From contig CANFKS010000005.1 of the NCBI GenBank assembly GCA_947447625.1, positions 1-64,000 on the forward strand: a stretch of DNA of 64,000 bases. Reading direction: 5' to 3'. The DNA is from Rhodospirillales bacterium. GTDB lineage: Bacteria; Pseudomonadota; Alphaproteobacteria; Acetobacterales; Acetobacteraceae. Of this stretch, positions 1 through 11,362 are shown piece after piece; position 1 is the stretch's first letter; each line of letters begins with the position of its first letter. The notes under the pieces were generated by a model, which had not been told where the DNA came from, did no database searches, and was given only the letters and a program-made list of their open reading frames with translations. The translations under genes and the position numbers were made by a program.

Positions 1-20
1 ACACTGCCGCACCTCGGTAA

Positions 21-40
21 AATCGTCTAAAAATTGTGCA
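21..40. promoter_or_regulatory. Candidate NtrC upstream activating element (copy 1)
   Basis: This 20-base element matches bases 1638-1657 at 15 of 20 positions (shared pattern AATCGYCYAARRRTTGTGCA). Both copies lie upstream of a sigma-54 promoter, here about 70 bases before the -24 box. Read on the other strand it starts TGCAC, one half of the NtrC consensus TGCACC-N5-GGTGCA; the second half is degenerate. The NtrC assignment is inference. Confidence 0.4.
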
Positions 41-82
41 AATGCCCTATTTTAGATCGAACACCTACGCGCCAATAGCGCC

Positions 83-105
83 AATTGATCGAAAATCGTT
101 CAATT
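83..105. promoter_or_regulatory. Near-perfect inverted repeat just upstream of the -24 box
   Basis: AATTGATCGA (83-92), spacer AAA, TCGTTCAATT (96-105): 9 of 10 positions pair. It ends 4 bases before the sigma-54 -24 element of urtA. It could be an operator, a bending-protein site, or the tail of a terminator from a gene left of the window. The binding protein is unknown. Confidence 0.4.
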
Positions 106-109
106 TTTC

Positions 110-125
110 TGGCACGACCTTTGCA
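110..125 (+). promoter_or_regulatory. Sigma-54 (-24/-12) promoter of urtA
   Basis: TGGCACG (110-116), four bases, TTGCA (121-125) matches the RpoN consensus TGGCACG-N4-TTGCW at every fixed position. It lies 58 bases before the urtA start codon, leaving room for a 5' leader with the ribosome site GAGGGAGA (173-180). It implies enhancer-dependent, nitrogen-regulated transcription. Confidence 0.85.
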
Positions 126-183
126 AATGAACCTTCAGCCGCGACGCAGCCCGCGTCAGAGGCCTTAAAAATGAGGGAGACTC

Positions 184-1482
184 ATGGCATCTTTCCGCAA
201 CTGGCTGCGTGGCGCCGGCCTGGCCGCCGCGACCGCCGCCGCCGTTTTGACCGGGGCGCATGACGCCCAGGCGCAAGCGACCATCAAGGTTGGCATCCTC
301 CATTCGCTCTCCGGCACCATGGCGATCAGCGAGACCACGCTGAAAGACGTCATGCTCATGCTGATCGAGGAGCAGAACAAGAAAGGTGGCGTGCTCGGCA
401 AGAAGCTTGAAGCCGTCGTCGTCGACCCGGCCTCGAACTGGCCGCTGTTCGCCGAGAAGGCCCGCCAGCTCATCGCCGTCGACAAGGTCGCCGCCGTGTT
501 CGGCTGCTGGACCTCGGTGTCGCGCAAGTCGGTGCTGCCGGTGTTCGAGGAACTGAACTCGATCCTGTTCTATCCCGTGCAGTACGAGGGCGAAGAATCG
601 TCCAAGAACGTGTTCTACACCGGTGCGGCGCCGAACCAGCAGGCGATCCCGGCGGTTGACTACCTGGCCAAGGAAGAAAAAGTGCAGCGTTGGGTGCTCG
701 CCGGCACCGACTACGTTTACCCGCGCACGACCAACAAGATCCTCGAGGCGTACCTGAAGTCGAAGGGCGTCAAGGACGAGGATATCATGATCAACTACAC
801 GCCATTCGGCCATAGCGACTGGCAGAACATCGTGGCCTCGATCAAGAAGTTCGGCACCGCCGGCAAGAAGACCGCCGTGGTCTCGACCATCAACGGTGAC
901 GCCAACGTGCCGTTCTACAAGGAACTCGGCAACCAGGGCCTCAAGGCGACCGATATCCCGGTTGTGGCGTTCTCGGTCGGCGAGGAAGAACTGGCCGGCA
1001 TCGACACCAAGCCGCTGCTCGGGCATCTGGCCGCGTGGAACTATTTCCAATCGGTCGAGAATGCCGACAACAAGGCATTCATCGCGAAGTGGCAGGCGTT
1101 CACCAAAAACCCGAAGCGCGTGACCAACGACCCGATGGAAGCCCATGTGGTCGGCTTCGCCATGTGGATCAAGGCGATCGAAAAGGCCGGCACGACGGAT
1201 CCGGCCGCGGTGATCGACGCGATGATCGGCATTTCGGTGCCGAACCTGACCGGCGGCTTCTCGGCGATGATGCCGAACCATCACATCACCAAGCCCGTGC
1301 TGATCGGCGAAGTGAAGGGCGATGGGCAGTTCAACGTGGTGTGGCAGACCGCCGGCACCGTGGTGGCGCAGGAATGGTCCCCGCATCTGGAAGGCTCGCG
1401 CGACCTGATCTCCGATTGGCGCGCCCCGCTCTCCTGCGGCAACTTCAACGTCAAGACGGGCAAGTGCGGCGGCAAGATGTAA
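184..1482 (+). CDS. urtA: Urea ABC transporter, periplasmic urea-binding protein
   Basis: 432-residue binding protein of the branched-chain-amino-acid/amide type I fold that delivers urea to the UrtBC permease. An N-terminal signal peptide (hydrophobic AGLAAATAAAVLTG, likely cleavage after AQA near residue 31) directs export. The mature region opens TIKVGILHSLSGTMAISE, the family's usual start, and has the UrtA-typical FGCWTSVSRKSVLPVFE and FYPVQYEGEESS segments. A strong ribosome site lies just before the ATG. It is expressed from its own sigma-54 promoter and followed by an intrinsic terminator, consistent with binding protein being needed in excess over permease. The downstream urt and urease genes make urea the near-certain ligand. 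Confidence 0.96.
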   Translation: MASFRNWLRGAGLAAATAAAVLTGAHDAQAQATIKVGILHSLSGTMAISETTLKDVMLMLIEEQNKKGGVLGKKLEAVVVDPASNWPLFAEKARQLIAVDKVAAVFGCWTSVSRKSVLPVFEELNSILFYPVQYEGEESSKNVFYTGAAPNQQAIPAVDYLAKEEKVQRWVLAGTDYVYPRTTNKILEAYLKSKGVKDEDIMINYTPFGHSDWQNIVASIKKFGTAGKKTAVVSTINGDANVPFYKELGNQGLKATDIPVVAFSVGEEELAGIDTKPLLGHLAAWNYFQSVENADNKAFIAKWQAFTKNPKRVTNDPMEAHVVGFAMWIKAIEKAGTTDPAAVIDAMIGISVPNLTGGFSAMMPNHHITKPVLIGEVKGDGQFNVVWQTAGTVVAQEWSPHLEGSRDLISDWRAPLSCGNFNVKTGKCGGKM

Positions 1483-1510
1483 TCCACCTCGCCTGATCCC
1501 GCCTATCCGG

Positions 1511-1543
1511 ACCCCGGGGCAGTGCGCTGCTCCGGGGTTTTTT
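1511..1543 (+). terminator. Intrinsic terminator after urtA
   Basis: ACCCCGGGGCAG, a 4-base loop, then CTGCTCCGGGGT followed by six Ts. It begins 28 bases after the urtA stop and should end or attenuate the urtA transcript, so the genes downstream need the second promoter at 1707. Confidence 0.85.
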
Positions 1544-1558
1544 GTTGCCTGACAAGAT

Positions 1559-1593
1559 AAGGAGAGCTTTTTTTGCAAAGAGAAGCGTTGCCT
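1559..1593. repeat. Degenerate T-rich/A-rich hairpin relic
   Basis: A GCTTTTTTTGCAAAGAGAAGCG core flanked by AGGAGA and TTGCC resembles a decayed copy of the perfect hairpin at 57143-57182: the right arm agrees well, the left arm has lost bases. It sits in the 291-base gap between urtA and urtB. Confidence 0.4.
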
Positions 1594-1637
1594 TCGCCTT
1601 GATCCCACCCGCGCCGGTTGATCGCAAACCGGTCAGA

Positions 1638-1657
1638 AATCGCCCAAGGGTTGTGCA
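1638..1657. promoter_or_regulatory. Candidate NtrC upstream activating element (copy 2)
   Basis: Second copy of the element at 21-40 (15/20 identical), here 49 bases upstream of the -24 box of the urtB promoter. Finding the same word before two separate sigma-54 promoters is the main argument that it is an activator site. Confidence 0.4.
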
Positions 1658-1706
1658 GTTTCCCGATGGTGGCTGATTTCCTGAGGGAAATCCGGCCCGA
1701 GTGCGG

Positions 1707-1722
1707 TGGCACGGCGGTTGCA
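1707..1722 (+). promoter_or_regulatory. Sigma-54 (-24/-12) promoter of urtB and downstream genes
   Basis: TGGCACG (1707-1713), GCGG, TTGCA (1718-1722): a second full consensus RpoN promoter. Transcription would start near 1734, which excludes the in-frame ATG at 1618 as urtB start and fits the GTG at 1774. It probably drives urtBCDE and the coupled urease genes. Confidence 0.85.
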
Positions 1723-1773
1723 AACACGATCGGGACGGCCGGCATGTGTGGCTGGTTGGACCGGGAGAACGAC

Positions 1774-3360
1774 GTGTCAGGCTTTATCCGGCGGTTATGT
1801 GCTTTGGTGATGGGCCTGGTGCTGGTTGGTCCGGCGTTGGGCCATGCGCAGGATGATCCGTTTGCCGGGCTGGCCGGTAGCGGGTTCGACGATATCAGGC
1901 GGGGGGTTGAGACCTTGGCAACCGCGGCGCCGCCGCAGGCTGCGGCGACGATCCTGGCGTTGCAGGCGGGGGCGCTGTTCGCGGGGGCGGATGGCGGGCT
2001 GTTCATCAAGGCGGGGGACGGGTTTGTCGATGCGCGGACCGGCAAGGCGGTGGCGGTCCCGGAGGGGGTGAAGGCGGTTCGGGTCAATAATGGGGTGCGC
2101 CGGGCGATCGAGGCGGCGATGGGGGGGCTGACGCTGTTCAGCCCCGACCCGGTGGTGCGGCGCAGCGCGGCGGAGGCGGTGTTGAAGTCCCGCGATGCAG
2201 CGGCTTTGCCGGCTTTGACGCGCGCGATCGCTGCGGAAAAGGACGAGGGGATCCGCGGCGTGATGCAGCAGGCGCGGGCAGCCGCGGTGCTGGCGACGGC
2301 GGATGCCACGCAGGCGGAGCGAATTGCGGCGGTTGGGGTGTTGCGGGCGCGCGGGGATCTGGATGCGCGGGCGATGCTGGCGTCGTTGACGGACCAACCG
2401 GCGGCGGTGCGCGAGGCGGCGGCGGTGGCGGTGGTGGCGATCGATCGGATGGTGCAGTTGTGGGGTTTGGCGCAGGGGGTGTTCTACGGGTTGTCGCTGG
2501 GGTCGGTGTTGTTGCTGGCGGCGGCGGGGCTGGCGATCACGTTCGGCGTGATGGGCATCATCAACATGGCGCATGGCGAGATGGTGATGATCGGGGCCTA
2601 CACGACATTCGCGGTGCAGGAAGTGATCCGGGCGCGGGCGCCGTGGTTGTTCGAGGCGAGTTTGTTCATCGCGGTGCCGGTGGCGTTTATGGTGTCGGGC
2701 GCGGTTGGGGTAGCGATCGAGCGGGGGTTGCTGCGCTTCCTGTATGGGCGGCCGCTGGAGACGTTGCTGGCGACATGGGGGGTGTCGCTCGCGTTGCAGC
2801 AAACGGTGCGGAGCCTGTTTGGGGCGTCGAACCGCGATGTGGGGACGCCGGCTTGGATGAGCGGGGCGACGCAGTGGGGGGGGCTGACGATCACGTATAA
2901 CCGGTTGGTGATCGTTGTTTTTGCTGTTCTGGTGGTGGCGGCGTTGATGGCGGCGTTGCGGTACACGGCGCTCGGGTTGCGGATGCGGGCGGTGACGCAG
3001 AACCGGCGGATGGCGGCCTCGATGGGAATCCGCACGCCGTGGGTGGATGCGATGACGTTCGGGCTGGGCTCGGGGGTTGCGGGGATGGCGGGCGTGGCGT
3101 TGAGCCAGATCGATAACGTCAGCCCCAATCTGGGGCAGGGCTACATCATCGACAGCTTCATGGTGGTGGTGTTTGGCGGCGTGGGGAATTTGTGGGGAAC
3201 GGTGGTGAGCGCGATGACGCTTGGGATCGTCAACAAGTTCCTGGAGCCTTTGGCCGGGGCGGTGTTGGGGAAGATCGTGGTGCTGGTGCTGTTGATCCTG
3301 TTCATCCAGCGCAAGCCGCGCGGGATGTTTCCGATCAAGGGTCGGGCGGTGGAAGCATGA
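1774..3360 (+). CDS. urtB: Urea ABC transporter permease
   Basis: 528-residue LivH-type inner-membrane permease. GTG start chosen because GGGAG (1763-1767) is correctly spaced and the site lies downstream of the sigma-54 promoter; longer in-frame starts at 1618 and 1744 are less likely. Residues 1-25 form a signal/anchor (ALVMGLVLVGPALGHAQ). About 200 residues of extracytoplasmic HEAT-like sequence follow, the extra N-terminal domain typical of UrtB, and then the multi-spanning permease from about residue 230, with the family motif GLAITFGVMGIINMAHGE. The coding strand is strikingly G-rich compared with urtA. Its stop overlaps the first of two mini-ORFs leading into urtC. Confidence 0.95.
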   Translation: MSGFIRRLCALVMGLVLVGPALGHAQDDPFAGLAGSGFDDIRRGVETLATAAPPQAAATILALQAGALFAGADGGLFIKAGDGFVDARTGKAVAVPEGVKAVRVNNGVRRAIEAAMGGLTLFSPDPVVRRSAAEAVLKSRDAAALPALTRAIAAEKDEGIRGVMQQARAAAVLATADATQAERIAAVGVLRARGDLDARAMLASLTDQPAAVREAAAVAVVAIDRMVQLWGLAQGVFYGLSLGSVLLLAAAGLAITFGVMGIINMAHGEMVMIGAYTTFAVQEVIRARAPWLFEASLFIAVPVAFMVSGAVGVAIERGLLRFLYGRPLETLLATWGVSLALQQTVRSLFGASNRDVGTPAWMSGATQWGGLTITYNRLVIVVFAVLVVAALMAALRYTALGLRMRAVTQNRRMAASMGIRTPWVDAMTFGLGSGVAGMAGVALSQIDNVSPNLGQGYIIDSFMVVVFGGVGNLWGTVVSAMTLGIVNKFLEPLAGAVLGKIVVLVLLILFIQRKPRGMFPIKGRAVEA

Positions 3361-3401: not shown

Positions 3402-3457
3402 GCGGCAGCGAGCACAGCGAGCGCGAGCACAGCGAGCGCGAGCGGAGAGAATCATGA
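3398..3457 (+). CDS. Mini-ORF 2 between urtB and urtC
   Basis: A 19-codon frame (MSGSEHSEREHSERERRES) that is a duplicate of mini-ORF 1 with an internal 15-base duplication (CACAGCGAGCGCGAG twice). It starts on the ATGA at the end of mini-ORF 1 and ends on the ATGA of urtC, again with GGAGAGAA before the next start. Seen directly; translation is inferred. Confidence 0.35.
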   Translation: MSGSEHSEREHSERERRES

Positions 3458-4506
3458 CCCGCGCATCGGTGATTCTGTGCCTGGCCGCCATTCTGGGGGG
3501 GGCGGCGCTGGTGGCGGCGGGCAATGCGTCGGGCCTGGTGCCGACCTATGTGGTGTCGCTGATCGGGAAGTATTTGTGCTTTGCCATTCTGGCGCTGGCG
3601 GTGGATCTGGTTTGGGGGTTTGCCGGGATATTGTCACTGGGCCATGCGGCGTTTTTTGCGCTCGGCGGCTATGCGATGGGCATGTATCTGATGCGCCAGA
3701 TCGGGACGCGCGGCGTCTACGGCAATCCGGTGTTGCCGGATTTCATGGTGTTTCTGAACTACAAGGCGCTGCCGTGGACGTGGTACGGGTTCGACAACCC
3801 GCTGTTTGCGATCCTGATGGCTCTGGCGGTGCCGGGGGTGTTGGCCTGGGTGTTCGGGTGGTTCGCGTTTCGCAGCCGGGTTTCGGGGGTGTATCTGTCG
3901 ATCATCACGCAGGCGATGACGTATGCGCTGCTGCTGGCGTTTTTCCGCAATGACATGGGGTTTGGCGGGAACAACGGGCTGACGGATTTCAAGGATATCT
4001 TCGGGTATCCGTTGCAGTCCGACGGGGTCAGGCGCGGATTGTTCATCGCGAGCGCGGTGGTGCTGGCGGGGGCGTTGATCGTGGCGCGGTCGGTGGTGAC
4101 AAGCCGGTTCGGCAAGGTGTTGATCGCAATGCGGGATGCCGAGAGCCGGACGCGGTTTTTGGGGTATCGGCCGGAGCGCTACAAGCTGTTTGTGTTCGTG
4201 CTGTCGGCCGTGATGGCGGGGATCGGGGGGGCGCTCTATGTCCCGCAGGTCGGGATCATCAATCCGTCGGAGTTCGCGCCGGGCAATTCGATCGAGGCGG
4301 TGATCTGGGTGGCGGTTGGCGGGCGGGGGACGCTGGTGGGCGCCATCCTGGGAGCCATCCTGGTCAATGCCGGCAAGACCTATCTGACCGGGGCGATGCC
4401 GGAGATTTGGCTGTTCGCGCTGGGCGCGTTGTTCATCGGGGTGACGTTGTTGTTGCCGCACGGGATTGTCGGGTTGTTCGGCAAGCGGGAGGCGCGCAAG
4501 TCATGA
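3454..4506 (+). CDS. urtC: Urea ABC transporter permease
   Basis: 350-residue LivM-type permease that pairs with UrtB. Hydrophobic from residue 5 with multiple predicted spans; the DLVWGFAGILSLGHAAFFALGGYAMG stretch (about residues 50-75) and the NGLTDFKDIFG segment are typical of UrtC. The ATG overlaps the stop of mini-ORF 2 and is preceded by GGAGAGAA. Its stop overlaps the urtD start, so synthesis of the membrane and ATPase subunits is translationally coupled. Confidence 0.95.
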   Translation: MTRASVILCLAAILGGAALVAAGNASGLVPTYVVSLIGKYLCFAILALAVDLVWGFAGILSLGHAAFFALGGYAMGMYLMRQIGTRGVYGNPVLPDFMVFLNYKALPWTWYGFDNPLFAILMALAVPGVLAWVFGWFAFRSRVSGVYLSIITQAMTYALLLAFFRNDMGFGGNNGLTDFKDIFGYPLQSDGVRRGLFIASAVVLAGALIVARSVVTSRFGKVLIAMRDAESRTRFLGYRPERYKLFVFVLSAVMAGIGGALYVPQVGIINPSEFAPGNSIEAVIWVAVGGRGTLVGAILGAILVNAGKTYLTGAMPEIWLFALGALFIGVTLLLPHGIVGLFGKREARKS

Positions 4507-5246
4507 GCACCGAGACGATCCTGTATCTCGATGGCGTGTCGGTCAGTTTCGATGGGTTCAAGGCGCTCAATGTGTTGTCGCTCGTTTTGCAGAAGGGCGA
4601 GATGCGCGCCGTGATCGGGCCGAACGGGGCAGGCAAGACCACGATGATGGATGTGATCACCGGCAAGACCAGGCCGGACGAGGGCAAGGTGATCTTCGGC
4701 AACAACACGGATCTGACGGCGCTCGATGAACCCTCGATCGCGGCGTTGGGGATCGGGCGGAAGTTTCAGAAGCCGACCGTGTTCGAACCGCATACGGTGT
4801 GGGACAATTTCATGCTGTCGTTGTCGGGCGACCGGCGGCCGCGCTTCACGTTGTGGGCGCGCGAGACGCCCGGCGAGCGGGAGCGGATCGAGGCGCTGTT
4901 GGAGACGACGAAGCTCGTGGAGCACCGGCATCGCCGCGCCGGGGATTTGAGCCATGGGCAGAAGCAGTGGCTGGAGATCGGGATGCTGCTGGCGCAGGAG
5001 CCGGCGTTGCTGCTGGTCGATGAGCCGGTGGCAGGGATGACGGATGCAGAGACCGAGCAGACCGCAATTTTGTTGCGGGAAATCAACAAGACGCGGTCGG
5101 TGGTGGTGGTGGAGCATGACATGCATTTTGTGCGCGCGCTCGACGTGAAGGTGACGGTGTTGCACGAGGGGGGCGTGTTGTCGGAGGGCACGATCGATCA
5201 TGTGAGCAGCGATCCGCGGGTCGTCGAAGTGTATCTGGGGCGCTGA
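4503..5246 (+). CDS. urtD: Urea ABC transporter ATP-binding protein
   Basis: 247-residue LivG-type ATPase. ATG at 4503 overlaps the urtC stop (ATGA); an in-frame ATG at 4407 lies inside urtC and is rejected. Walker A GPNGAGKTT near residue 38, signature region LSHGQKQWLEIGMLL, Walker B LLLVDEPVAGMT and switch His in VVVVEHDMHFV are all intact. The C-terminal DPRVVEVYLGR is the LivG-type ending. Works with UrtE on the cytoplasmic face of UrtBC. Confidence 0.95.
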   Translation: MSTETILYLDGVSVSFDGFKALNVLSLVLQKGEMRAVIGPNGAGKTTMMDVITGKTRPDEGKVIFGNNTDLTALDEPSIAALGIGRKFQKPTVFEPHTVWDNFMLSLSGDRRPRFTLWARETPGERERIEALLETTKLVEHRHRRAGDLSHGQKQWLEIGMLLAQEPALLLVDEPVAGMTDAETEQTAILLREINKTRSVVVVEHDMHFVRALDVKVTVLHEGGVLSEGTIDHVSSDPRVVEVYLGR

Positions 5247-5249
5247 AGG

Positions 5250-5945
5250 ATGCTCGAAGTGAAAAATGTGGTGCTGCATTACGGGGCGGCGCTGGCGTTG
5301 CGGGATGTGTCGTTGACGGCGGTGCCGGGCGAGGTGACGTGTCTGCTGGGGCGCAACGGGGTCGGCAAGACGAGCCTGTTGCGCGCGATCACCGGGGTGC
5401 ATCCGGTGAGCCAGGGCAGCATCCTGTGGGAGGGCCAGGACATCACGGCGCTGCCGCAGTTCGAGCGGGCGCGGCGTGGGATAGCGACGGTGCCGCAGGG
5501 ACGGGATATTTTTCCGCTGTTGACGGTTCGGGAGAATTTGGAGACCGGGTTTGCGGTGCTGCCGCGGGGGCAGCGGCGGGTGCCGGAGGAGATGTTCGCG
5601 TTGTTTCCGATCCTCAAGACGATGCTGGGGCGGCGGGGCGGCGATTTGTCGGGCGGGCAGCAGCAGCAATTGGCGATTGCCCGCGCGCTGGTGATGAAGC
5701 CCAGGCTGCTGGTGCTGGACGAGCCGACGGAGGGGATTCAGCCGAGCATCATCAAGGACATCGGGCGGATCATCGACCTGTTGCGCAGCCGGGGGGATAT
5801 GGCAATTTTACTGGTGGAGCAGTATTTCGATTTCGCGCGGGATTTGGCGAGCCGGATCGTGGTGATGGACCGGGGGGAGATTGTGTTGAACGGGCTGCGC
5901 GATGAATTGGACCATGACGATGTGCGGCGCAGGGTTTCGGTGTGA
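5250..5945 (+). CDS. urtE: Urea ABC transporter ATP-binding protein
   Basis: 231-residue LivF-type ATPase, second ATPase of the urea importer. It starts 3 bases after urtD and begins MLEVKNVVLHYGAALALRDVS. Walker A GRNGVGKTSLL near residue 35, signature LSGGQQQQLAIARAL, Walker B LLVLDEPTEGIQPSI and H-loop VEQYF follow; the H-loop carries Q-Y in the pattern usual for LivF/UrtE. The end of the gene abuts the hairpin at 5961-5990 before ureD. Confidence 0.95.
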   Translation: MLEVKNVVLHYGAALALRDVSLTAVPGEVTCLLGRNGVGKTSLLRAITGVHPVSQGSILWEGQDITALPQFERARRGIATVPQGRDIFPLLTVRENLETGFAVLPRGQRRVPEEMFALFPILKTMLGRRGGDLSGGQQQQLAIARALVMKPRLLVLDEPTEGIQPSIIKDIGRIIDLLRSRGDMAILLVEQYFDFARDLASRIVVMDRGEIVLNGLRDELDHDDVRRRVSV

Positions 5946-5960
5946 GACAGCCGGAAGGCA

Positions 5961-5990
5961 GCGGTCGCTTTTGTGAACAAAAGCTCCGCG
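5961..5990. repeat. Hairpin between urtE and ureD
   Basis: GCGG-TC-GCTTTTGT-GA-ACAAAAGC-T-CCGC forms a stem with an 8-bp perfect core. It resembles the T-rich/A-rich hairpin at 57143-57182. Its position favours the ATG at 5996 over the GTG at 5942 as the ureD start and could tune mRNA stability at the transporter/urease boundary. There is no T tract. Confidence 0.5.
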
Positions 5991-5995
5991 GAAAA

Positions 5996-6808
5996 ATGCT
6001 GTCCCAACATCAGCGTGCCCAGGGCGAGTTGCAGGTTCGGCTCGGCCTGCGCGACGGGCGGACGGTGTTGCGCGATTTGCGGCAGCAGGGGTGTTTGAAG
6101 GCGCGGTTTCCGCATCCCGTTGGGGCGCATGAGACGGTGACGTTGAATACCTCGGGCGGCGTGGCGGGGGGGGATCGGCTGGAGTCGGTGTTGCATGTGG
6201 AGGCGGGTGCGCATGCTATTTTCGCGTCCCAGGCGGCGGAGCGGTTCTATCGGGCGTTGCCGGGCGATCCGCCGGCGCATGTGCGGACGGAATTGCGGGT
6301 GGAGGCCGGCGCAAGGGCCGAGTGGTTGCCGCAGGAGTCGATCCTGTTCGATGGCTGTGCGGTGGATCGGGTGTTGACGATCGAAATGGCCGGCGATGCC
6401 TCGGTGCTGGGGATGGAGGCGCTGATGTTCGGCAGGACAGCGATGGGGGAGCGGGTGGGGCATGCGCGGTTGAGCGACACAATACGGGTGCGGCGGGAGG
6501 GGCGGCTGGTGTTGCATGATGCGATCCGGATCGCGGGGGTGGCGGATGCGTTGGAGGCGCGGGCGGGGCTCGATGGCAATCGGGCAAGTGCGACGGTGTT
6601 TTGCGTGGCACCCGATGCAGAGGGGCGGCTTGAGGGGTTGCGCGCGGCGTGGGAGGCCGCGCCGGCCGAGACCGGAGCGAGTGCCTGGAACGGCATGCTG
6701 GTCGCGCGTATTCTGGCTCCCGATGCGGCGCGCTTGCGGGCGGCGCTGGTGATGGGGCTCAATCAATTGCGCGACGGCCGGGCCGTGCCGCGCGTGTGGA
6801 TGTGCTGA
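5996..6808 (+). CDS. ureD: Urease accessory protein UreD
   Basis: About 270-residue urease chaperone that binds apo-urease and, with UreF and UreG, forms the nickel-insertion complex. Family landmarks: [11 protein letters not shown] at the N terminus, [32 protein letters not shown] and [13 protein letters not shown] 5996 is preferred because the region before it forms a hairpin; the alternative is GTG 5942, overlapping the urtE stop and adding 18 residues. It is first of the urease genes and followed 10 bases later by ureA. Confidence 0.92.
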
Positions 6809-6818
6809 GGAGCATGCG

Positions 6819-7121
6819 ATGAACCTGACCCCGCGTGAAAAAGACAAATTGTTGATATCGATGGCCGCCATGGTGGCGCGGCGGCGGCTGGAGCGCGGGG
6901 TGAAACTCAACCACCCCGAGGCGATCGCGCTGATCACCGATTTCGTGGTGGAGGGGGCGCGGGATGGGCGTTCGGTGGCGGATTTGATGCAGATGGGGGC
7001 GCATGTGATCACGCGCGACCAGGTGATGGAGGGGATCGCGGAGATGATCCATGACGTGCAGGTGGAGGCGACGTTCCCGGACGGGACGAAGCTGGTCACG
7101 GTGCATGAGCCGATCCGATGA
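6819..7121 (+). CDS. ureA: Urease gamma subunit
   Basis: 100-residue gamma subunit of the (alpha-beta-gamma)3 urease; the length matches the bacterial family. Begins [23 protein letters not shown] and contains [22 protein letters not shown] and [24 protein letters not shown], all hallmarks. GAGGAG lies 6 bases before the ATG. Its stop overlaps the next gene (ATGA), which is a GNAT acetyltransferase rather than ureB. Confidence 0.97.
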
Positions 7122-7582
7122 GTCTCACCATGGCAACCGTCGAGCGGGTCTCGCCTGATGCAGCGCACGCCGCGGCGCTGATCGCCAAGGCGGAGGCGGA
7201 GTTGGCGCAGCGCTATTCGCCGGAGCATCGCCATGGCCTGGCGGTGGATGCGCTGCTGGCGCAGCAAGCGCGGTTTTTCGTCATCATGCACGATGACGAG
7301 GCCGCGGGCTGCGGCGGGTATGTGGTGTTTGCGCCAGGGTTGGCCGAGTTGAAGCGGATGTATGTGGCGCGGCCGCATCGCGGGCATGGGCTGTCGCGGC
7401 AGGTGTTGCGCGCAATCGAGGCGGCGGCGGCGGCGGAGGGGGTGCGGGTGATGCATCTTGAAACCGGGACGCTGCAGTCCGAGGCGCTGGCGCTGTATCT
7501 GAGCGCGGGCTATCGGGTTTGCGGGAAGTTCGGGGCATACACGGATAGCCCGGTCAGCGTTTTCATGGAGAAGCACCTGTGA
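7118..7582 (+). CDS. GNAT-family N-acetyltransferase embedded in the urease operon
   Basis: 154 residues of the GNAT fold. The acetyl-CoA-binding segment is [22 protein letters not shown] (about residues 86-107), preceded by the beta-strand LAELKRMYV and followed by the C-terminal [27 protein letters not shown]. It overlaps ureA by 4 bases at its start and ureB by 4 at its end, so it is translated as part of the urease unit. GNAT enzymes modify amines, amino acids or proteins; the substrate is unknown. A link to urease assembly or to detoxifying a product is only inference. Confidence 0.88.
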
Positions 7583-7884
7583 TCCCTGGTGAAATCGAGA
7601 CGATGGATGGCGATATCGAACTCAATGCGGGGTTGGCGCGCACCGTGCTGACGGTGGCCAATACCGGGGATCGGCCGATCCAGGTGGGCAGCCATTATCA
7701 TTTCGCGGAGACCAATCCGGCGCTTTCGTTCGATCGCGCAGCGGCGCGCGGACAGCGGCTGGATGTGGCGGCAGGCACGGCGGTGCGGTTCGAGCCGGGA
7801 CAGACGCGGGACGTGACCCTGGTGCCGTACCAGGGGGATCGGATCGTCTACGGCTTCCGCGCTGTTATCATGGGAGAGATCTGA
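7579..7884 (+). CDS. ureB: Urease beta subunit
   Basis: 101-residue beta subunit, of usual length. GTG start at 7579 overlaps the GNAT stop (GTGA). Begins [19 protein letters not shown] and contains [46 protein letters not shown] and [13 protein letters not shown], all diagnostic. The stop shares one base with the ureC start (TGATG). Confidence 0.97.
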
Positions 7885-9590
7885 TGGCCCGTATCACGCG
7901 CCGTGCCTATGCCGATATGTATGGGCCCACCACGGGGGACCGGGTGCGGCTGGCGGATACGGAATTGTGGATCGAGATCGAGCGGGATCTCACGGTTTAT
8001 GGCGACGAGGTGAAATTCGGCGGCGGCAAGGTGATCCGCGATGGGCAGGGCCAGTCCCAGCGCTCGCAGGCCGAGGGGGCCGTCGATACGGTGATCACCA
8101 ATGTCGTGGTGCTGGATCACTGGGGGATCATCAAGGCGGATGTGGCCATCAAAAACGGGCGCATCGCGGCGATCGGCAAGGCCGGCAATCCCGATGTGCA
8201 GCCCGGCGTGACGATCATCGTCGGCCCCGGCACGGAGGTGATCGCGGGGGAGGGAAAGATTTTGACGGCGGGGGGGATCGACAGCCACATCCATTTCATC
8301 TGCCCGCAGCAGGTGGACGAGGCGATCGCATCCGGCGTGACGACCCTGGTCGGCGGCGGCACGGGGCCTGCGACGGGGACGTCGGCCACAACCTGCACGC
8401 CGGGGCCGTGGCACATGATGCGGATGTTGCAGGCGGCCGAGGGCTTGCCGGTCAATATCGCGTTCTCCGGCAAGGGCAATGCGTCCCGCCCCGCGGCGCT
8501 GGAGGAGATGATCCTGGCAGGGGCTTCGTCGTTGAAACTGCATGAGGATTGGGGGACAACGCCGGCCTCGATCGATACCTGCCTGTCGGTGGCGGACCGG
8601 TTCGACGTGCAGGTGATGATCCACACGGATACGCTGAACGAGAGCGGCTTCGTCGAGGACACGATCGCGGCGTTCAAGGGGCGCACGATCCATGCCTTCC
8701 ACACCGAGGGCGCCGGCGGCGGGCATGCGCCGGATATCATCAAGGTGGCGGGTCTGCCGAATGTGCTGCCGTCATCGACCAATCCGACGCGGCCCTACAC
8801 CGCCAATACGCTGGACGAGCATCTCGACATGCTGATGGTGTGTCATCACCTGGACCCCGCGATCCCGGAGGATGTGGCGTTCGCGGAGAGCCGCATCCGC
8901 AAGGAGACGATCGCGGCGGAGGACATCCTGCACGACCTCGGCGCGCTGTCGATGATCTCGTCGGACAGCCAGGCGATGGGCCGGGTTGGCGAGGTGATCA
9001 TCCGGACATGGCAGACCGCGCATAAAATGAAGACCCAGCGCGGATCGCTCGCCGGCGACGGGCGGGCGGATAATGCGCGGGTGAAGCGCTATGTGGCGAA
9101 ATACACCATCAACCCCGCCATCGCGCAGGGGCTGGCGCATGAGATCGGCTCGATCGCGGCGGGCAAGTTGGCCGATCTGGTGCTGTGGTCGCCGGCGTTT
9201 TTCGGGGTGAAGCCCGATCTGGTGATCAAGGGCGGCTCGATCGCCATGGCGCCGATGGGGGACCCGAATGCGTCGATCCCGACGCCGCAGCCGGTGCATT
9301 ACCGGCCGATGTTCGGGCAGTACGGCAAGGCGATGGCGCCCTCATGCATCACGTTCCTTTCGGCGGCGGCGCTGGAGGATGGCATCGGCGCGCGGCTCGG
9401 GTTGCAGCGGATGCTGTCGGCGGTCAAGAACACGCGCGGCGGGATCGGCAAGAAGGACATGATCCACAACGACGCGACGCCGAACATCGAGGTCGATCCG
9501 GAGACCTACGAGGTGCGGGCCGATGGGGTGTTGTTGACATGTGAGCCGGCGGTGGAATTGCCGATGGCGCAGCGGTATTTCCTGTTCTGA
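7884..9590 (+). CDS. ureC: Urease alpha (catalytic) subunit
   Basis: 568-residue amidohydrolase-fold subunit that hydrolyses urea to ammonia and carbamate at a di-nickel site. Nickel ligands are visible: H135/H137 in GGIDSHIHF, the carbamylated lysine K218 in [10 protein letters not shown], and His in [11 protein letters not shown] and [14 protein letters not shown]. The mobile flap cysteine/histidine region is MLMVCHHLD. Length and all motifs are complete, so an active enzyme is expected. GGGAGAG precedes the start inside ureB. Confidence 0.98.
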
Positions 9591-10090
9591 TGAAAAGCAT
9601 ATCGGTTGTCCCGGCGGGGACGTGGGACGCGGCGCGCGAGGTCGATCAGGTGCTGGTCGATTTCGACCGGCGGCATCGGCGGCGGATTTTGCTCACGACC
9701 GAGAAGGGGGACGCGGTGTTGCTCGACCTGCCCCATGCCGTGCGGCTGCGGCATGGCGACGGGCTCGTGGTGGCGGGCGGCGTGGTGCGGGTCGTCGCCC
9801 GGCCGGAAAAGCTGGCGGAAATCCATGGGCATGATCCGGGGGAGATGGTGCGGATCGCCTGGCATCTCGGCAACCGGCATCTGCCGGTGCAGCTGGTGGG
9901 CGCGCGCATCCGCATCCGGCACGATCATGTGATCGAGGAGATGGTGGCGCTGCTCGGCGGTCACGTCGATATCATCGAGGCGCCGTTCGATCCGGAGGCC
10001 GGGGCCTATGCAGCCCCCGGGACGGCACAAGCGGCGGCGCATTCCCATCATCATGATCATGACCATGACGACGACCATCACCACCACTGA
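9590..10090 (+). CDS. ureE: Urease nickel metallochaperone UreE
   Basis: 166-residue nickel carrier. The N-terminal peptide-binding domain (RRILLTTEKGDAVLLDLPHAVRLRHGDGL) and C-terminal metal-binding domain (IAWHLGNRHLPVQL, with the conserved His in the GNRH motif) are present, followed by a His/Asp-rich nickel-storing tail, [16 protein letters not shown]. The gene starts one base into the ureC stop (TGATG). The tail DNA is also read in another frame as the start of ureF. Confidence 0.95.
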   Translation: MKSISVVPAGTWDAAREVDQVLVDFDRRHRRRILLTTEKGDAVLLDLPHAVRLRHGDGLVVAGGVVRVVARPEKLAEIHGHDPGEMVRIAWHLGNRHLPVQLVGARIRIRHDHVIEEMVALLGGHVDIIEAPFDPEAGAYAAPGTAQAAAHSHHHDHDHDDDHHHH

Positions 10091-10748
10091 GGCGACGCTG
10101 CGGCTGCTCGCCTGGCTGTCGCCGGCGTTTCCGACCGGCGGGTTCGCCTGGTCGCATGGCGTGGAGTGGGCGGTCGATTGCGGGGATGTGACGGATGGGG
10201 GGTCGTTGCTGGCGTGGCTCGACGTGGTGTTGCGCCATGGCACGGGGCGGGCGGATGCGATCATCCTGCGCCATGCGCATCGCGCGGCGGGGGATATCGA
10301 GGCGCTGGTGGCTGTGGCGGAACTGGCACGCGCGCTGCCGTCGAGCCGGGAGCGGCATGCCGAGGGGGTGGGCCAGGGCAATGCGTTCCGGCTGGCCGCA
10401 GCAGCGTGGCAGCCCGCGGTGCTGGCGGCGCTGCATGAGCGGGTCGGCGATATTCCCTATGCGGTGGCGGTCGGTGCGCTGGCGGGGAGCAAGGCGATCG
10501 GTGAAGACCTGGCAGCGGCGGCCTATCTGCAGACGCTGGCGGCAAATTTGATTTCCGCGGCGGTGCGTCTGGTCCCGCTCGGGCAATCCGCAGGGCTGGC
10601 GGTGCTGGCGGCGCTTGAGCCGGTGATCGCCGCTGTTGCCCTCGACACCGGATCGGCGGGGCTGCACGATCTCGGTGGCTGCGCCCTGCGCTCCGATCTC
10701 GCCGCAATGCGGCATGAAACCCAATATACGAGGCTATTCCGCTCATGA
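10065..10748 (+). CDS. ureF: Urease accessory protein UreF
   Basis: 227-residue urease chaperone, the activating partner of the UreG GTPase in the UreDFG complex. Motif [24 protein letters not shown] is diagnostic, followed by helical sequence and a C-terminal [22 protein letters not shown] ending. Several ATGs (10053, 10059, 10065) fall within the ureE His tail; 10065 is chosen as closest to the conserved region. No clear ribosome site exists, so coupling to ureE translation is likely. It overlaps ureG by 4 bases. Confidence 0.93.
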
Positions 10749-11362
10749 GCTCTCCCCATGGCCCGCTGCGCGTCGGCATCGGCGGCCCGGTCGGCACCGG
10801 CAAAACGGCGTTGATGGATGCGCTGTGCCAGCGCCTGCGCGTCCGTTACGATATCGCCGCCATCACCAACGACATCTACACCAAGGAGGACGCCCAGTTC
10901 CTCACCCGCGCGGGCTCGCTGCCGCCGGAGCGGATCTTGGGGATCGAGACCGGAGGATGCCCACATACGGCGATCCGGGAGGATGCCTCGATCAACCTCG
11001 CAGGGATCGCGGATCTCAACCGGCGGTTTCCGGCACTCGATGTGATCCTGATCGAGTCGGGCGGGGATAATCTGGCGGCGACGTTCAGCCCGGAGCTGGC
11101 GGATTTGACGATCTATGTGATCGACGTGTCAGCCGGGGACAAAATCCCGCGCAAGGGGGGCCCAGGGATCACACGGTCGGACCTGCTGGTGATCAACAAG
11201 ATCGACCTCGCGCCCTATGTGGGGGCGAGCCTTGAGGTGATGGAGCGGGATTCGAAGCTGATGCGGCGGGATCGCCCGTTCGTGTTCGCCAATGTGCGGG
11301 CCGGGCACGGCGTCGAGGAGATCGCGCAGTTCATCGAGCGGCAGGGCGGGCTTCAGGCATAG
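10745..11362 (+). CDS. ureG: Urease accessory GTPase UreG
   Basis: 205-residue SIMIBI-class GTPase that powers nickel delivery to urease. P-loop [13 protein letters not shown] (about residues 12-24), the nickel-binding [13 protein letters not shown] loop with the Cys-Pro-His triad, [54 protein letters not shown] with the NKxD base-recognition motif. All are complete. Last urease gene; no nickel transporter follows it. Confidence 0.97.

Follow-up and report, generated by a model that had tools for sequence, protein, structure and literature searches.

Two near-perfect predicted sigma-54 promoters in the urea-uptake and urease cluster of an Acetobacteraceae genome

Results

Genes of the urea-uptake and urease cluster

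The window, that is, the whole 64,000-nucleotide stretch of DNA analyzed here, shares its first position with the contig and carries a urea-uptake and urease gene cluster near this end, with positions 1–183 as the available upstream region of urtA (Table 1). Family models identify urtA, urtB, urtC, urtD, urtE, and ureC, and the names of the other ure genes rest on gene order and on a preliminary description of the same DNA. In both urtA and urtB, the start codon and the ribosome-binding site are positioned as expected. The GTG start of urtB lies behind a GGGAGA sequence, about 50 bases past the core of the second promoter described below, and the N-terminus of the encoded protein resembles a signal peptide, comparable to that of UrtB in the congeneric genome G120. 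Within the urease operon, a gene for a GNAT-type acetyltransferase (7118–7582) overlaps two other frames, those taken to be ureA and ureB.

Table 1. Positions of genes and predicted regulatory features at the start of the window.
Feature	Position	Strand	Evidence and remarks
NtrC-box-like dyad CGTCTAAAAATTGTGCA	24–40		13.7 bits with a 17-bp dyad matrix derived from the family, leaving out the genus of the window genome; centred 78 bp upstream of the −24 box of urtA
Second, weaker dyad TGATCGAAAATCGTTCA	86–102		11.5 bits; 16 bp before the urtA −24 box; doubtful, very near the promoter
Predicted sigma-54 promoter of urtA	110–125	+	TGGCACG-ACCT-TTGCA, TGGCACGACCTTTGCA; start predicted at ~136
urtA, urea ABC transporter binding protein	184–1482	+	TIGR03407, 560 bits
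Predicted intrinsic terminator in the urtA/urtB gap	1509–1540	+	−26.6 kcal/mol (z −3.5); stem of 14 pairs with a T run behind it
Weak dyad TGATCGCAAACCGGTCA	1619–1635		Centred 80 bp upstream of the −24 box of urtB; 7.4 bits (shuffle p 0.105)
Weak dyad CGCCCAAGGGTTGTGCA	1641–1657		Centred 58 bp upstream of the −24 box of urtB; 6.4 bits
Second predicted sigma-54 promoter, before urtB	1707–1722	+	TGGCACG-GCGG-TTGCA, TGGCACGGCGGTTGCA; start predicted at ~1733
Probable urtB ribosome-binding site	1763–1768	+	GGGAGA; sequence
urtB, permease	1774–3360	+	TIGR03409, 413 bits; GTG start
urtC, urtD, urtE, ureD, ureA, GNAT-like gene, ureB, ureC, ureE, ureF, ureG	3454–11362	+	Open frames, packed closely or overlapping

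Two consensus sigma-54 sites

The preliminary description had placed consensus sigma-54 promoters before urtA and before urtB, and both are indeed exact forward-strand matches to TGGCACG-N4-TTGCA, with two 16-mers that agree at every specified position of this pattern. The starts proposed there, 137 and 1734, lie next to those predicted from the sequence, which were counted from the C of the −12 GC at 124 and 1721. Each site combines a GG at −24 and a GC at −12 with standard spacing and near-consensus flanks, and each scores 20.9 bits with a −24/−12 matrix that was trained on the urtA sites of the family, leaving out each genome in turn.

Pattern counts across the entire 4.28 Mb genome indicated how rare such sites are. 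The exact pattern has two forward matches and no reverse match, and reading it backwards as a control gave no match in the same genome. The relaxed pattern TGGCAYRN4TTGCW matches three times, at the urtA site, at the urtB site, and before another ABC transporter binding-protein gene. With one match outside urt among the roughly 8.5 million positions of the two strands, we estimate that a given 292-bp gap such as that between urtA and urtB would contain a relaxed match on its sense strand by chance with a probability of ~1e-4 or less. A scan of window positions 1–3000 found no sigma-70-like alternatives.

The genome encodes RpoN, and it contains an ntrC gene that scores above the curated cut-off and whose product carries the GAFTGA loop. 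This loop matters because the NtrC proteins of Caulobacter and Rhodobacter, which are described as lacking it, act at sigma-70 promoters (PMC10274813); finding it in the host NtrC removed the worry that this protein works in the same way. Further NtrC-family activators with GAFTGA or GAFSGA loops are present. RpoN and a sigma-54-competent activator, on which sigma-54 promoters depend, are thus both encoded. Judged by sequence, the view that the urtA and urtB sites are genuine sigma-54 promoters is supported, and the urea-uptake and urease genes of this genome carry two near-perfect predicted sites compared with the usual one.

An ancestral predicted urtA promoter with a conserved dyad

For comparison, 80 UrtA loci were gathered from genome contigs, and UrtA and UrtB matches were also collected from genomes of the family of the window, an assignment to Acetobacteraceae that follows the closest UrtA relatives with named records. 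For 80 genomes of this set, stretches of at most 2.6 kb surrounding the start of urtB were compared. A consensus scan found a −24/−12 site upstream of urtA in 69 of the 77 Acetobacteraceae genomes with a placeable urtA, and 56 of the 80 loci from the genome-contig search have urtA sites of at least 11 bits (a few of these loci also come from Acetobacteraceae). On these sequence comparisons, the predicted urtA site is ancestral.

Motif discovery in 66 non-redundant urtA upstream regions revealed a single dyad, TGCCnAAAATTTnGGCA, which ~98% of these regions contain; its log-likelihood gain was 297, compared with ~27 in shuffled sequence. In the family, its centre lies mostly 50–90 bp before the urtA −24 box. 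The same dyad also appears in the window genome before glnK-amtB (22.6 bits) and before glnB-glnA (17.5 and 15.3 bits), in both cases together with a −24/−12 site. Because glnK-amtB and glnB-glnA are classic NtrC targets, TGCCnAAAATTTnGGCA very probably represents the NtrC box of Acetobacteraceae. If so, the urtA promoter of the window has an NtrC-type enhancer upstream, and its predicted control by NtrC through this conserved dyad, shared with glnK-amtB and glnBA, is well supported. These two operons have the same layout of dyad and −24/−12 box as urtA, but they have single promoters in the stretches scanned, and their dyads are far stronger than those before urtB.

Two further observations concern individual elements. 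The third relaxed sigma-54 match in the genome, TGGCATGGGGCTTGCT (L125; G000 contig C8:25868–25883, reverse strand), lies ~145 bp before a gene for a branched-chain-type ABC transporter binding protein and has dyads of 15.9 and 12.7 bits upstream; by sequence, this gene is likely a further NtrC target. The leader of urtA contains a hairpin-forming stretch, GACGCAGCCCGCGTC (138–163, z ~−2), in surroundings that are well conserved among congeners; a leader RNA element is one possibility for this stretch, an operator another.

A rare, lineage-specific second sigma-54 site before urtB

Unlike the widespread urtA site, a urtB-proximal sigma-54 site was found in only four of about 80 family genomes: the window genome (20.9 bits), G027 (18.8 bits), G120 (16.5 bits), and G002 (14.6 bits). 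All remaining family genomes score at most 7.0 bits there, and among 74 urtA–urtB gaps of the genome-contig locus set a single one, carrying the site of G002, scores above 8. The congeners G121, G111, and G020, which are nearest by UrtA identity with urtA and urtB adjacent, lack the site. A near-match after urtA in G018 (7.0 bits) was judged to be due to chance. By these comparisons, the predicted urtB promoter is a rare addition specific to certain lineages.

The genomes that share the site differ in how urtB is arranged. In G120, urtA and urtB are separated by an opposite-strand glycosyltransferase-like gene, which keeps urtB from simply following urtA; a sigma-54 site of its own precedes urtB. 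In G027, other genes occupy the ~2.5 kb upstream of urtB and urtA is absent from this stretch; here urtA lies near a contig end, and an assembly effect is possible. Good dyads precede the urtB sites of G120 (12.2 bits) and G027 (13.6 bits), both with a shuffle p of 0.001, whereas the two dyads of the window score inside the shuffled range (p 0.105). Their distances nevertheless match those in G120, at 58 and 80 bp compared with 60 and 82 bp, and the 12.2-bit dyad of G120 is the nearer one, at 60 bp. G002 has a urtB-proximal site although urtB is not separated from urtA. This genome has no sigma-54 site at urtA, but contains CGGCACGCCGCTTGCA 7 bp after the urtA stop codon (L197), without an NtrC dyad; either the site is due to chance or control has shifted to urtB.

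In a UrtB tree, the window genome groups with G120 (support 81/85), and the urtB upstream regions of the two give an alignment of ~60 bp that outscores all 2000 shuffles. This points to a shared origin, which is only suggestive because one of 69 comparisons between the G120 urtB region and urtA upstream regions of other genomes reached an equal score. An origin of the urtB region by duplication of the urtA promoter region finds no support in the sequences: the urtB region aligns to the urtA promoter region with a score of 30, below the best score of 31 against urtA upstream regions of other genera.

A separate observation was made in G020, which contains a second urtA fragment cut by a contig end (contigs C63/C39; L124, L095). 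Over residues 1–227, it is 98% identical to UrtA of the window, compared with 93% for the main copy of G020. The gene next to the fragment on its upstream side encodes a repetitive protein that resembles the one encoded ahead of urtA in G120. Duplication, transfer, or a mixed bin are possible explanations.

The urtA–urtB gap and its predicted terminator

The gap between urtA and urtB spans 292 bp in the window genome, which is longer than in nearly all relatives, and contains a strong predicted terminator as well as the second promoter. In the congeners G111 and G121, the gap measures 80–98 bp and neither has a second site. Three other genomes (G053, G180, and G248) have gaps of 272–335 bp without a urtB site, but they also lack a recognizable urtA site. 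In a scan of 80 family gaps that had no shuffle control, 69 contain a hairpin of −12 kcal/mol or stronger, and nearly all of these gaps lack a second promoter; a T-rich tail follows the hairpin in only 26 of the 80.

The preliminary description had placed a terminator at 1511–1543, which is real as a structure with slightly shifted ends, and had concluded that urtA and the urtBCDE–urease block are separately transcribed, nitrogen-controlled units. Both sites, the start codons and ribosome-binding sites, the terminator between them, and the NtrC dyad at urtA agree with this proposal. Its weaker parts are the separateness of the units, as read-through is possible, and the response of urtB to NtrC, given dyads with a p of ~0.1. 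The further suggestion that the abundant binding protein could thereby be set apart from permease and enzyme describes a possible outcome, but is weakened by the stable hairpins that most relatives have in this gap with no second promoter. Since such hairpins are common in this setting, unequal dosage could arise from attenuation or message stability alone.

Discussion

Relation to known urea regulons

Control of urea uptake and urease by NtrC and sigma-54 is already known, and the doubled promoter is a small variant of it. NtrC/sigma-54 regulons containing urt and ure genes have been predicted in Proteobacteria, namely in Alteromonadales, Oceanospirillales, Rhizobiales, and Rhodobacterales (PMC5343134), a list of orders in which Acetobacteraceae are not included. 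In an ntrC mutant of Burkholderia cenocepacia, the binding protein, urtB, urtD, ureA, and ureC are all strongly down (PMC5491218). These systems comprise the same genes, with NtrC activating urea transport and urease under nitrogen limitation, but the relevant passages of both papers describe gene regulation and mention no second promoter before urtB.

An uncoupling of the binding protein from the permease is likewise seen in Microcystis aeruginosa, where low nitrogen raises the transcripts of urtBCDE but not of urtA (PMC3720943). This organism is a cyanobacterium, however, and the cyanobacteria studied regulate urea transport genes through NtcA (PMC6737895) rather than through NtrC and sigma-54 as predicted for the window; promoter mapping does not feature in the pertinent passages of PMC3720943. 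We found no report of a separate urtB promoter in the open-access literature, as represented by listings and selected passages.

A second promoter that may compensate for lost read-through

Taken together, two sigma-54 units are the best reading of this locus on sequence grounds. We propose, with reasonable confidence, that urt and ure form an NtrC/sigma-54 regulon in which an ancestral urtA promoter is complemented by an extra, lineage-specific urtB promoter that compensates for lost read-through. Under nitrogen limitation, phosphorylated NtrC bound ~80 bp upstream would open the closed sigma-54 complex at 110–125, and most urtA transcripts would end at the terminator, if this is as efficient as its structure suggests. 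The promoter at 1707–1722, presumed to be active and to depend on NtrC as well, would then restart transcription near its predicted start site, which would keep the production of UrtBCDE and urease matched to the demand for nitrogen. In this way, the second promoter probably lets the permease and enzyme genes switch on independently of urtA. Compensation is suggested because second promoters are found for the most part in genomes with a long gap or with urtB apart from urtA: the urtB promoter would make up for read-through that was lost when the gap grew or, as in G120, was interrupted. The distribution thus suggests restored urtB transcription rather than a setting apart of the binding protein, although four cases are few.

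A single operon with partial termination, in which urtA to ureG are transcribed mainly from the urtA promoter, the hairpin attenuates transcription or stabilizes the urtA mRNA, and the 1707 site adds little, appears unlikely, yet it accounts well for the many family gaps that have a hairpin and nearly always no second promoter, which is likely the ancestral arrangement. The strong T run of the window hairpin sets it apart from the majority of these gaps, and a near-consensus second promoter is hard to account for as decoration. Less probable still is a genuine sigma-54 promoter at urtB that is activated by a different enhancer-binding protein, or by NtrC acting from the enhancer of urtA at a distance of 1.6 kb upstream, with the two units responding unequally or to different signals. 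The weak dyads before urtB in the window and the additional NtrC-family proteins encoded in the genome would fit such an arrangement, but the urtB sites of G120 and G027 have good NtrC dyads, and elements at matching distances are recognizable in the window. Finally, a chance match at 1707 without promoter function would agree with the lack of the site in G111, G121, and G020, but is highly improbable for a full consensus on the correct strand, at the right distance from a good ribosome-binding site, and among only three relaxed matches in 4.28 Mb.

Returning to the compensating urtB promoter, we tentatively extend this reading, with rather more doubt than belief, to the idea that sigma-54 promoters at urtB arise repeatedly when read-through from urtA is lost, and that in the window genome a near-perfect −24/−12 box offsets a weak NtrC enhancer.

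The comparisons supply a likely NtrC box for Acetobacteraceae, TGCCnAAAATTTnGGCA, which was derived from 66 promoters and recurs before glnK-amtB and glnBA. If the proposed history is true, the urea cluster of this family would exhibit natural stages through which a nitrogen-controlled operon is progressively split, and would be a testable case of operon splitting under a global regulator, in which the promoter at urtA is kept and a second one is gained at urtB.
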